Shown here piece by piece: positions 25,915 to 30,074 of a stretch of DNA of 64,000 nucleotides; the stretch's first letter is position 1; each line of letters starts with the position of its first letter. Where the stretch lies: positions 558,001 to 622,000 of the forward strand of contig NZ_LLWP01000009.1 in NCBI RefSeq assembly GCF_001412215.1, read 5' to 3'. Source of the DNA: Pedobacter sp. Hv1 (GTDB taxonomy: Bacteria > Bacteroidota > Bacteroidia > Sphingobacteriales > Sphingobacteriaceae). The position numbers were made by a program, and so were the translations under genes. The notes below the pieces were generated by a model. It made no database searches, was not told the DNA's origin, and was given only the letters and a program-made list of their open reading frames with translations.

Positions 25915-26562
25915 TTAAATGCCTAAACAATTATCGGCCTTGTAAAAAACAGAAGTGGCCTTGTTGTAAAATAGACCTGGAGAAATGCCAGTAAATGGAA
26001 GTTCTTTAAATCCTTTTTCGGTTAAAAATGTTCTGGCTTCTTGGTATATTTCACGTTCCGAATCGTCTAAAACCAAAACACCATTGCTTGTTAAAGCATC
26101 AACACTGTGTTTACAACAGTTTACCCGATCTCTACCATCTACAATAATGACATCGAATTTTTCTGCTAATAATTTTGCTTTCTGACTGTATTCTCCACCT
26201 TTTTCAAGCTGGGTAAAAATCATTTCAGCATTGCTGGCTTTTTCTTTTACAATTTTATTGAACCAAGCTTCATCATGTTCTACAGAAACTACTTTTTTTA
26301 CACGTTTGGCGTAGAATAAAGTAGAGTTGCCAGAACCATATTCAAAAATAGCAAGCTCTTTGTTTAGTCGAGTTTTGATGAAATCGATGAACGAATAAGT
26401 TACCCATGGTAAGGGTTGTTCTGCTTCATCTACGGCTTGATGGGTATCAAATGCGGTGAACCAACCAATAGTGGCCAAATAGCCTTTATGTCCATAAGAT
26501 AACAGGGCGTTCAGCCTTTTTGGCTTACCAATTAGATCTGCTAATGCTTTAAATTTACTCAA
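25915..26562 (-). CDS. SAM-fold methyltransferase-like protein
   Basis: This 215-residue protein has a Rossmann methyltransferase core: IFEYGSGNSTLFYAK (about 93-107), SVEHDEAWF (about 114-122), and FDVIIVDGRDRVNC (about 158-171) with the acidic end of strand 4. The pattern resembles short proteins often labelled FkbM or class I methyltransferase in LPS and capsule loci. It overlaps the flippase gene by 4 bp and is cotranscribed with it. Whether it still methylates is not certain, but the SAM loop looks intact. Confidence 0.75.
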   Translation of the reverse strand: MSKFKALADLIGKPKRLNALLSYGHKGYLATIGWFTAFDTHQAVDEAEQPLPWVTYSFIDFIKTRLNKELAIFEYGSGNSTLFYAKRVKKVVSVEHDEAWFNKIVKEKASNAEMIFTQLEKGGEYSQKAKLLAEKFDVIIVDGRDRVNCCKHSVDALTSNGVLVLDDSEREIYQEARTFLTEKGFKELPFTGISPGLFYNKATSVFYKADNCLGI

Positions 26563-27887
26563 CGTTTAAATATTTTTTGAAATGCGGAGACCAAAAATAG
26601 TGATTTTAACATCATTATTCCTTGCGGGCGTGTTTTAGGGATAAAAAGAATTAAAAAAGTAGCAGAAAAGTAAGCCACTACTGTAGCAATGGCCGTTCCC
26701 ATCATCCCCATTTTTGGGATCAATAAAAAGTTTAAAATAATATTGACAATGGCACCAAGACCAGTACGGATAAAGGTAAGCTTGTTAAAACCTTCGGCTA
26801 TTAAAAACTGACCACTGGCTACACCTAAGAACACAAACAAGCTGCCCCAAACGTGTACGGCCAAAACGGGTGCTGCAGCTACATACTGAGGTTTAAATGA
26901 TTGATAAATTAATGGTGAAGCAATGGTGATGAAGATGGCAAATGCCAAACTTAACCATATCATCAAATCGAACAGATTTTGAAGTCGTTTTTGATAACGT
27001 TGAGGGTCGTCTCTGCGGGCATTTAGAATGGCGGGGAAAAGAGAGGTGACAATGGCCACAGGCACAAAGTTCAGCGCCTCACTAAACATCACTACAGTTG
27101 CGTAAGCACCAGAGGCTTTGGTGCCAACATCATCGCCTAAAATCTCTTTGAGCATGATCACATCAATCTTCATGTACACAGATACCATAATACCCGAAAT
27201 GATCAATGGCCAAGAAAGGTGCAATAATTTTTTGGCTAGTTGGTGGTCGTATTTCCAATTGAAAACACTGCGACCTTTTCGCTGATAAGTAACAAAATAG
27301 CCTATAGACAGGATCAAAATATCAAATGCATAAGCATAGATAAAATACATGATGTCTGCAGCAAGGTAAACCAATAGGATTTTAATGCCTGCAGAAACAA
27401 TGTTGCCAATAATCTGCACCTGCATGATATATTTAGACTGTACTTCAGATTGGAAGTACGAATCGATAATGGTAAAGGATTGAAACAGCCCTACAAATGA
27501 TAAAATAAGGATAAATAAGTAGGGGATATTGGTAAGGGGAAACAATTGCCAAGCAATAAAGATGATGGGGATACATAACAATCCGGCAAATATCTTTAAT
27601 AAAAATGAGGTACCTAAAATGGTATCTCTTTGTTTGGGAAACTGGTGCAGCTCTTTAACAATGAAACTATCTAAACCCAATCCAGCCAAGGCTGCAAATA
27701 GAAAAACGTAAGAGGTAGAGGTACTTAAAACACCATTCCGCTCTGGTAAAAGGTAATTGGCCACATGAATGGTGGTCAGCATTTTAATGGCCATACTGCC
27801 TACCCTGCCTAACATCAATAAACCTGTATTTTTAAAATACTTGTTTAAGGCCTGCTCATCAAAACCATTTATCTTGGGTAGTTTCAT
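26559..27887 (-). CDS. Oligosaccharide flippase (Wzx/MATE-like)
   Basis: This 442-residue polytopic protein has about 12-14 membrane spans and belongs to the polysaccharide-transport branch of the MVF superfamily. Such proteins flip undecaprenyl-diphosphate-linked repeats to the outer face of the inner membrane. The N-terminal LLMLGRVGSMAIKMLTTIHV and the charged loop around RRDDPQRYQKRLQNL (about 292-306) fit the family. It leads a four-gene minus-strand unit (flippase, two SAM-fold proteins, glycosyltransferase). No polymerase (Wzy) is present in the unit. Confidence 0.87.
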   Translation of the reverse strand: MKLPKINGFDEQALNKYFKNTGLLMLGRVGSMAIKMLTTIHVANYLLPERNGVLSTSTSYVFLFAALAGLGLDSFIVKELHQFPKQRDTILGTSFLLKIFAGLLCIPIIFIAWQLFPLTNIPYLFILILSFVGLFQSFTIIDSYFQSEVQSKYIMQVQIIGNIVSAGIKILLVYLAADIMYFIYAYAFDILILSIGYFVTYQRKGRSVFNWKYDHQLAKKLLHLSWPLIISGIMVSVYMKIDVIMLKEILGDDVGTKASGAYATVVMFSEALNFVPVAIVTSLFPAILNARRDDPQRYQKRLQNLFDLMIWLSLAFAIFITIASPLIYQSFKPQYVAAAPVLAVHVWGSLFVFLGVASGQFLIAEGFNKLTFIRTGLGAIVNIILNFLLIPKMGMMGTAIATVVAYFSATFLILFIPKTRPQGIMMLKSLFLVSAFQKIFKR

Positions 27888-27917: not shown

Positions 27918-28496
27918 TTAAGTAAGTGGTGCGCCAACTGCAATTTCGCAGCGATGGCCAGGTGCACCATGTTTAGGGTTCAGTTTTACACCATTCTTAG
28001 CTTCTTTTGGTAAGTTGGCTGGTAACTTAACATCAACGGCTTTTGGTGTGGTTGTAGTTGTTGTGGTTTGAGGTTTCGAATCTAAAGGAGCACCTACAGC
28101 TATTTCGCAACGGTGGCCAGGTTCGCCATGTTTAGGGTTCAATTTTTGTCCACTGCTAGGTACTACTGCTTCAACAGGTGCTGTTGTTGGTGTTACCGCA
28201 GGTACTGTGGTATTGATAGGTTGTGGGTTAACTGTTGGCGTAACAGGTGTTGATGGGGCTGCATTTAACGAGGCACCTACTGCAATGTCGCAACGATGGC
28301 CAGGAGCACCGTGAGGTGGATTAACACCAGCATTGCCTGTGGTTTGGCCAGTTGCTGCAGCAGGAACACTTGGCGCACTATTCTGAATGCCCTGTAAGCC
28401 TGTTGGTGTTGCCGCATAAGTTTGTGTAGATTCTGGTTTTTTAGAATTACAGGCCATTAAGCCTACCACACAACATAGATATAAAACCTGTTTCAT
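27918..28496 (-). CDS. Lipoprotein with three HGxPGHRC repeats
   Basis: I do not recognise a named function. The 192-residue protein has a lipoprotein signal peptide with lipobox LMAC (cysteine 16). The rest is Pro/Thr/Ala/Val-rich linker carrying three copies of NPxHGxPGHRCxIAVGAxL, at about 59-77, 120-138 and 173-191; the last ends the protein. Each copy has two histidines and one cysteine in fixed spacing, which could bind a metal or heme, though this is only inference. The linkers look disordered and one has a threonine run. The gene stands alone between flippase and DinB genes. Similar repeats occur, to my knowledge, in other Bacteroidota hypothetical proteins. Confidence 0.72.
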   Translation of the reverse strand: MKQVLYLCCVVGLMACNSKKPESTQTYAATPTGLQGIQNSAPSVPAAATGQTTGNAGVNPPHGAPGHRCDIAVGASLNAAPSTPVTPTVNPQPINTTVPAVTPTTAPVEAVVPSSGQKLNPKHGEPGHRCEIAVGAPLDSKPQTTTTTTTPKAVDVKLPANLPKEAKNGVKLNPKHGAPGHRCEIAVGAPLT

Positions 28497-28530: not shown

Positions 28531-29055
28531 TTACCTTGCTAACTCAAAACTATTTTCTATCCGTTTCAATTGTTTTAAGTGATGGTTCAAATGCACTTCG
28601 GTAAATCGTAACCATTGCTTAGCATTGAGGTAACCTAGTCTAGGGTGTTTAACTTTTATTTTTGGATTGGCGCTGTTAATCTGAGGGAAGGTTTTCCCTA
28701 ACTGGAGCTCGAAATCTGTAATAAATTGTTGTGCTGCCATAATGTTGATTTTCTTCACTCTTTCGGCCAATCTTTTAGGAACTTTATACTTTTTACCAGG
28801 TGGCAAGGTGCCAAAAAACAAGACCATTTTTGCGCCAAATAAGGTAGGTTGTTTTTCACCCTCACCTTTAATACAGTTGTTTAAGGCCATTAAAGAAAGT
28901 AAGCTAGAATCGAAAATATGAGCATACACCTCACTATAACTCCATCCACCAATGGGTGGAGTTAAAATAAAATCATCATCGTCAAGTTTGTTCAACTTTA
29001 CCTGATAAGCATTTACAATTTTGAGGATCGATCGATAAACTTTGGCTATGTTCAT
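28531..29055 (-). CDS. DinB superfamily protein
   Basis: This 174-residue four-helix-bundle protein is of the DinB/YfiT type. Three histidines in family positions are visible: YAHIFDSS (about 45-52), then LRFTEVHLNHHLKQL (about 151-165), which usually hold a divalent metal. Members include bacillithiol or mycothiol S-transferases and many proteins of unknown role; DNA damage induction is known only for the founder. It starts 20 bp after the DUF4476 gene on the same strand, so the two may be cotranscribed. Confidence 0.8.
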   Translation of the reverse strand: MNIAKVYRSILKIVNAYQVKLNKLDDDDFILTPPIGGWSYSEVYAHIFDSSLLSLMALNNCIKGEGEKQPTLFGAKMVLFFGTLPPGKKYKVPKRLAERVKKINIMAAQQFITDFELQLGKTFPQINSANPKIKVKHPRLGYLNAKQWLRFTEVHLNHHLKQLKRIENSFELAR

Positions 29056-29075: not shown

Positions 29076-30074
29076 TTATCGCTTACTTATAAAATCAAGT
29101 AGGGCATCTTGGTTGGTTTTGTATTTAAATACGTCTTTTAAGGTAAAATAGTTTTGTTGATCATTTACATAGCGGTAGGCCCATTTGGCGCAGATCAAAG
29201 CTTTGTCTTCAAAAGTATAAAGCCTCAATAATACGTCCATGTGGCCTGTAGATAGCGATTTATTTTGGAATGCAGCTTGGATCAATTTCGTTTTATCATC
29301 ATCAAAAGCCTCTCGTTTAACAGCAGATTTTAATTGCTCAAAATCAGCAGCCAAACTTGAACCCTGCTCTGCTCTTGGTTTTGGCCTACTGTTTAAAAAG
29401 TTAATAAAATTATCTTTCGTACTTATAAAAGTGAAAGACTCTTTTAAGGTATAGTAATTCTGTATATCACTAATTGCAGGGGTTAAACTTTTCGCCAAGC
29501 TTAATTTTTTGTCGTCGTTTATTATGCTTTTTAACAAGATGGCCACTTGTATCGTAGACAAATCATTGTATGCAACATAAGCTTGAATCAATTTAATTTT
29601 ATCATCATCAAAAGACTCCTTTTTTATTAGAATGCTCAGGTCGTTAAAAGCCTTGCTATTTTCTGTCGGACGAGGTTTTGTTGGCGGAACAATCCCTGTA
29701 TTAAAATTATTGCTATAATCGTCAAAATCGTTTAAGGCATATTGTCTGTCCTTATAGATGCTCAATTCTTTGTAAAACTGAAGACCTCGCCTTAGAGAAT
29801 AATTTAATATCAATCGTTGGTCTAGCTGAAGATCAATTTTGGTACTGAAAATTCTTTTGTTGCCTTGTAAAATAGACAGTGTAGGTCGGGTATTGTAAAC
29901 ATCGTAAAATCTAAATCGCCCGTTGGCCGACCCTACAAATTCATCGTCTAAATAAACGGTAAAATTGCCTTGATCTTCAATTTGGATAAATACTTCGGCT
30001 TTGCTGCGGTTGTTTTGTGCTAAACTTAGCTGTGCACCGAGTAGGGCCAGCATTAAAAGGATGTAAGGTTTCAT
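29076..30074 (-). CDS. Secreted protein with two DUF4476 domains
   Basis: The 332-residue exported protein has a signal peptide (residues 1-19, SLAQ) and an N-terminal beta region (about 20-110). Two copies of DUF4476 follow: about 140-232 and about 245-332. The copies share ESFDDDKIKLIQA / EAFDDDKTKLIQA and QNYYTLKESF / QNYFTLKDVF. DUF4476 is common in secreted Bacteroidota proteins and has no assigned activity. The two copies seem to have arisen by internal duplication. It lies upstream of the DinB gene. Confidence 0.8.
   Translation of the reverse strand: MKPYILLMLALLGAQLSLAQNNRSKAEVFIQIEDQGNFTVYLDDEFVGSANGRFRFYDVYNTRPTLSILQGNKRIFSTKIDLQLDQRLILNYSLRRGLQFYKELSIYKDRQYALNDFDDYSNNFNTGIVPPTKPRPTENSKAFNDLSILIKKESFDDDKIKLIQAYVAYNDLSTIQVAILLKSIINDDKKLSLAKSLTPAISDIQNYYTLKESFTFISTKDNFINFLNSRPKPRAEQGSSLAADFEQLKSAVKREAFDDDKTKLIQAAFQNKSLSTGHMDVLLRLYTFEDKALICAKWAYRYVNDQQNYFTLKDVFKYKTNQDALLDFISKR

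Follow-up and report, generated by a model that had tools for sequence, protein, structure and literature searches.

A lipoprotein gene with three 19-residue repeats

The window (the whole 64,000-nucleotide stretch of Pedobacter sp. Hv1 DNA analysed here) contains an open reading frame on the minus strand, at 27918..28496, which encodes a protein of 192 residues and for which homologues were found. Residues 1-16 (28449..28496, minus strand) form a signal peptide ending in a lipobox that reads ...VGLMAC, its cysteine being Cys16; this cysteine is at least 90% conserved in an alignment of 57 proteins. The mature chain is rich in Pro, Thr, Ala and Gln and carries three 19-residue repeats (called beads for simplicity): bead 1 at residues 59-77 (NPPHGAPGHRCDIAVGASL, 28266..28322), bead 2 at residues 120-138 (NPKHGEPGHRCEIAVGAPL, 28083..28139) and bead 3 at residues 173-191 (NPKHGAPGHRCEIAVGAPL, 27924..27980), all on the minus strand, with the C-terminus one residue beyond bead 3. 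Translation of the minus strand thus bore out the original prediction of a frame with a lipobox and three 19-residue copies; the predicted linker length of 40-45 residues held for the linker between beads 1 and 2 (42 residues) and failed for that between beads 2 and 3 (34 residues). Written as a degenerate DNA pattern, the bead core HGxPGH(R)C matched three times in the 4.9 Mb genome, always in this gene, and the reversed pattern gave no match across the same 4.9 Mb; the repetition is therefore not due to chance.

To describe the family, 186 beads from 75 distinct proteins were extracted with an HMM, whose seeds were beads picked for H-H-C and whose threshold was 12 bits, so that a badly degenerate bead could escape the count. 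Proteins were assigned to the family if they carried at least one bead of the form NPxHGxxxHxCxxxxGxxL and an export signal with a lipobox Cys or another anchor; the window protein has three such beads and Cys16. The consensus reads N-P-x-H-G-x-P-x-H-x-C-x-I-x-V-G-x-P-L over 19 residues. N3, P4, H6, G7 and H11 are invariant in 186/186 beads, and C13 and G18 are identical in all 185 beads that reach them, the frame of L044 being interrupted inside its last bead. The counts at four further positions are 163 of 186 for P9, 177 for V17, 177 for P20 and 183 for L21. The His-His-Cys triad of the original prediction is thus fixed throughout (186/186, 186/186 and 185/185), and the refuting outcome named beforehand, an alignment in which His and Cys vary among homologues, did not occur. 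The residues flanking the bead Cys co-vary: a basic residue at position 12, just before the Cys, is accompanied by an acidic residue at position 14 in 131/131 beads, and Asp at position 12 in 0/33.

Two beads (37 proteins) or three (34 proteins) are the usual number, with one or four in two proteins each, and beads follow one another at 35-88 residues, start to start. The last bead is usually C-terminal, the chain ending 0-3 residues past its final Leu in 61/75 proteins. A Cys lies upstream of the first bead in 72/75 proteins, a count that covers any such Cys rather than individually checked lipoboxes; the exceptions are L032 with a Cys-free start resembling a signal peptide, L100 with a hydrophobic N-terminus and L015 with an interrupted frame. 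With a lipobox or other anchor, low-complexity linkers and one to four beads per protein, the predicted 'anchored string of beads' describes the family well. Among 14 orthologues from the genus, selected because they carry three or four beads, column identity with gaps excluded was 87% in beads vs 46% in linkers.

The linkers are also set apart by what they lack. In 3799 linker residues between the 24-residue bead windows there was no Cys, no His and no Trp. With the composition of neighbouring ORFs, about 34 Cys and 81 His would be expected, and with that of 80 control windows rich in Pro, Thr and Ala the figures would be 46 Cys and 21 His; these composition controls were drawn from mechanical ORFs, some of which are surely not genes. 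No further Cys occurs in bead windows, linkers or tails; the stretch ahead of the first bead was counted from after the last upstream Cys (the lipobox) and so is free of Cys by the way the count was built. This stretch contains 3 His in 3219 residues, and an extra His is found in 7/186 bead windows (at position 22 in five close relatives and at position 10 in two). The ban on His outside the two bead sites is therefore not complete.

Distribution and genomic neighbourhood

A search with the whole protein detected relatives in 19/59 genomes, 16 of these among the 36 genomes of the same genus, one of the 16 (G004) being an N-terminal remnant. Named relatives are found in Pedobacter frigidisoli and P. 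punctiformis, with best segments 49% and 47% identical. A 24-column bead profile was then applied to two overlapping draws of genomes. In the phylum draw, which included many genomes outside the class, 32/395 genomes were positive, all of them within the class of the window and none outside it. In the class draw, 39 of 396 genomes were positive at E < 1e-6 and span 13 families by our own count; at E <= 0.1 the tally is 60 genomes, 21 of which have noise matches only. The class-draw scores are bimodal, at 6.1e-7 or better and then at 0.0036 or worse.

The strong matches of any one genome fall in a single gene, and among those of the phylum and class draws no bead is fused to a folded domain, the open frames reaching at most 259 codons. 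Whole-protein tblastn gave no match in plasmids and phages, and viral contigs contained no relatives. Five loci inspected among the HGxPGHxC pattern matches outside the family proved to be frames of 20-59 codons. A literature search of titles and the beginnings of abstracts retrieved no relevant paper for the bead motif strings or for CCGSCS / TIGR04101 (see below), nor matching literature for the combination of copper and lipoprotein. The bead family is real, strongly constrained and undescribed: seven positions are invariant in a 19-residue motif that is carried by an otherwise poorly conserved sequence through 13 families of one class.

In the window the bead gene lies between a gene for a DinB superfamily protein upstream (28531..29055, minus strand, 34-base gap) and one for a multi-spanning membrane protein downstream (26559..27887, minus strand, 30-base gap), which resembles a polysaccharide flippase. 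Both neighbours are syntenic in the genus, where the bead gene sits between DinB-like and flippase-like genes, surrounded by what are presumably UPRT, HAD and sugar-polymer genes. The 34-base gap suggests that the bead gene of the window is co-transcribed with the DinB-like gene. Further upstream, between the HAD-like and DinB-like genes, positions 29076-30074 encode a protein with two DUF4476 matches, whose cluster is present in 3/23 neighbourhoods compared.

In the genus, 35 genomes matched the flippase, and 15 of the 30 loci read have beads. Twelve of the 15 beadless loci are empty sites, in which the aligned end of the DinB gene lies 22-75 bases before the flippase start; in the remaining three a truncated N-terminus of the bead protein is left (G004), the HAD gene adjoins the flippase gene (G018) or the locus is rearranged (G030). 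The empty sites indicate that the bead gene comes and goes as a whole; synteny in the genus is therefore no evidence of a functional linkage. Upstream of the flippase gene in G004, locus L204 retains the signal peptide, the lipobox and the start of the linker, after which no beads follow; it is a remnant of the bead lipoprotein and marks decay of the gene in one species of the genus.

Outside the genus the neighbours vary from family to family among the neighbourhoods clustered or read. In family f26, an element TATATTTG stands shortly upstream of the start in 12/13 loci. We take it to resemble the TAnnTTTG promoter of the phylum, and given its position just before the start the bead gene of f26 is probably a transcription unit of its own. 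In family f22, presumably Chryseobacterium-like by its gene content, an inverted repeat precedes the bead gene in every one of the six loci aligned from genus g22, and a pattern search detected it in 5/8 f22 genomes, once per genome. In two of these five a changed base keeps a G-U pair. The single copy per genome and the preserved pairing led us to set aside a role as operator and to read the hairpin as the terminator of the preceding regulator gene, which it probably is. One such hairpin (L096:9140-9232), which separates the bead gene from a response-regulator gene, is strong, with a fold z of -5.0.

Possible metal binding and competing readings

How might such a chain work? We propose an envelope lipoprotein whose mature part would be a flexible Pro/Thr/Ala/Gln string with near-identical 19-residue beads. 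The HGxPGHxC turn would set two His beside the Cys, the second of them two residues before it, and could thereby form a compact N2S site. Each site would bind a single ion of a soft transition metal, Cu(I) in the first place and Zn in the second, and the IxVGxPL half would pack over the metal site or contact a partner. With a number of such sites acting independently along one tether, the metal capacity at the membrane would rise, and the protein could act as a buffer, a scavenger or a carrier for handover. That His and Cys are so scarce elsewhere in the chain agrees with independent sites which must neither cross-link nor compete. An envelope string of small His2-Cys metal sites for buffering or delivery is the reading that we favour, and we give it a little less than an even chance; metal binding, the identity of the metal, the location (periplasm or surface) and the buffering or delivery role are all things that we infer.

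Metallothionein-like or His-rich envelope metal buffers, in which a flexible chain likewise carries a number of small sites for soft metals, would work alike; the bead differs from them in its one Cys and two His, its long invariant frame and its wide spacing. If beads do bind metal, each would be a metal site pared down to the size of a peptide, and envelope metal handling would gain a new component.

The gene neighbourhoods provide a metal association in one family. In f22, the neighbours of the bead gene are genes for a small Cys-rich protein and for a TonB receptor, all in the same direction, in each of the 8 genomes that were positive in the phylum draw. The association spans three genera and two gene orders: beads - small protein - receptor in the six genomes of g22, and small protein - (HMA protein) - receptor - beads in the other two genera. 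The L089 receptor has one HMA domain by Pfam (1e-07), a second recognisable by eye and matches of CopZ type; it is the receptor that was domain-scanned, the other f22 receptors being grouped with it by BLAST clustering. In g22 (L089, L096 and L153-L156), the TonB receptor with an HMA-like N-terminus and the small Cys/His-rich protein, which ends in WQPPK, lie beside a two-component system, and receptor and small protein are likely a metal import set.

The f22 receptor neighbourhood is the sole recurring metal association. In L093 a CopZ-like HMA ORF lies 20 bases from the bead gene, tail to tail with it, and since the two genes are convergent they are not co-transcribed. Outside f22 and L093, no metal gene was seen among the immediate neighbours read. 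In the genus of the window, matches to the HMA part of the f22 receptor occur in 5/15 bead genomes vs 7/21 beadless ones, independently of the beads, and co-occurrence with a copper receptor was rejected as a general rule. The 'ligand or metal binding' of the original prediction is thus backed indirectly, by the invariant His-His-Cys, by linkers free of His and Cys and by the HMA receptor next to the gene in one family, but the metal link fails to generalise to the genus of the window. A wider version of the proposal, in which the proteins would form an unrecognised envelope class ('metal rosaries') of one to four His2-Cys beads in at least 13 families, holding Cu(I) or Zn for handover to importers such as the HMA TonB receptor, we consider unlikely.

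Conservation extends well beyond the putative ligands. His and Cys are matched in invariance by N, P and G, with V, P and L close behind, which speaks against the metal reading in that it also fits a docking motif. That NP and IxVGxPL are nearly as conserved as the ligands suggests either a fixed backbone or a recognised surface, and docking stays a serious rival, the main one, although we rate it as rather unlikely. Here a folded partner in the envelope would bind the bead as an extended peptide, and multiple beads would strengthen binding through avidity and keep the partner at the membrane. Besides conservation over the whole 19 residues, the spacing of the beads is in line with docking, as is an AlphaFold2 (AF2) prediction made from three sequences, which had a mean pLDDT of 39.7 and contained no compact bead or fold; the lack of a compact bead also counts against the metal reading. 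The bead type moreover varies by position, RC[DE] being present in 101/124 internal beads vs 27/61 terminal beads. Docking does not, however, need an invariant Cys and two His, the linkers are free of His and Cys, and no partner gene is common to the families in the clustered neighbourhoods. If docking is what the bead does, there should be a conserved partner so far unrecognised.

The single Cys of each bead, with none elsewhere in bead windows, linkers or tails, and the His two residues before it also agree with thiol chemistry: each bead would present a reactive Cys whose pKa is lowered by the His, and this Cys could serve in redox sensing, form reversible disulfides or carry a covalently bound cofactor such as haem. 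Yet 34/75 proteins have three beads, and with odd numbers this common pairing of Cys within a chain is not required; nor was a redox or haem-lyase gene seen among the neighbours read. We judge this explanation improbable. Still less credence goes to beads as core peptides of a modified-peptide (RiPP-type) precursor, which an enzyme would excise and mature; we hold this very improbable. The repetition of a conserved core between variable spacers and the chain ends just past the final Leu of the last bead would suit such a precursor; most members carry a lipobox-type anchor, and no maturase or dedicated protease was noticed among the neighbours read or scanned.

Descent of the bead from the heavy-metal-binding domain HMBD (PF19335; CPMHP...PGxCPxCGMxL) in shortened form is hardly credible and was rejected on sequence. 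Both are short Cys/His beads, often repeated, the same genome has 7 HMBD matches, and by eye the order P-x-H, P-G, C, G, x-L agrees with the bead; the bead, however, is without the CPM and CPxCGM ligand set (as read from 13 HMBD units), hhalign of 93 bead vs 13 HMBD sequences gave a local P-value of 0.35 over 4 columns, the gapped profile score was reached in 271, 333 and 274 out of 500 shuffles of the columns with three different gap settings, and HMBD is absent among the 25 listed of the 30 Pfam families matched by 57 members.

Resemblance to known families and motifs

The window protein had no match in Pfam at E up to 10 and none in PHROGs. A PDB search with the protein returned 4 Spastin matches (E 0.38-2.6) in its low-complexity part, and one with the bead profile returned no match. 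The 30 Pfam families matched at E <= 1 by the 57 members are, in the 25 listed, mostly matched by few members each. The commonest of those listed is FG-GAP (PF01839), with 11/57 members and a best E-value of 0.0038. In 10 members inspected individually, 6 match FG-GAP, with at most 17.5 bits (L102) against a cut-off of 22.1. The likeness consists of the bead stretch D-[IL]-x-V-G-A-P-L, of which 9-13 residues align with positions 17-27 of the 37 in the profile; the match is confined to the bead's second half and the rest of the repeat is missing, and the likeness is probably due to chance.

In NCBIfam, the window protein has three matches below threshold, the best to TIGR04101 (CCGSCS motif protein, function not assigned) with 21.4 bits vs a cut-off of 28, and with 14.1 bits in the genome search; the string CCGSCS is absent from it. 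TIGR04101 is matched at E <= 0.1 by 12/57 members, the best being the four-bead protein L086 (9.1e-09). L086 passes the cut-off with 36.2 bits vs 28, a score summed over its beads, no single stretch of which passes, and on this total it would be named a CCGSCS motif protein. Of the 12, six were seen singly, one above the cut-off and five below. The matched stretches end at the bead Cys, from which we conclude that TIGR04101 shares the HGxPG..C region and the composition, whereas the VGxPL half of the bead is unmatched; this comparison was made through the model rather than its member proteins. Matches to PG1828-family lipoproteins were present in 17/57 members (NCBIfam) and, in those inspected, lie in the N-terminal region that serves export.

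A pattern scan of viral contigs yielded 30 stretches (L168-L197), 28 of which represent one protein type with a single E-N-P-x-H-G-x-P-G-H-x-C, the first half of a bead. This protein has the motif in single copy and without the IxVGxPL half, and gives no sign of common descent with the bead family. As the stretches were selected by the motif itself, they are a recurrence and no independent test. Together with TIGR04101, the viral-contig protein offers only a hint that HGxPG(H)xC might be a small site useful enough to arise independently. One of these proteins (L190) has a weak match of its tail to phrog_24078, which is of unknown function, and a tblastn search of the phage collection with it was negative. 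The bead's second half has a lookalike as well: at L135:18599-19363 and L138:87-1010, two proteins that we take to be acyltransferase-like contain a stretch, GPGKQCEIRVGAPM, that resembles it at about 10 bits, probably by chance.
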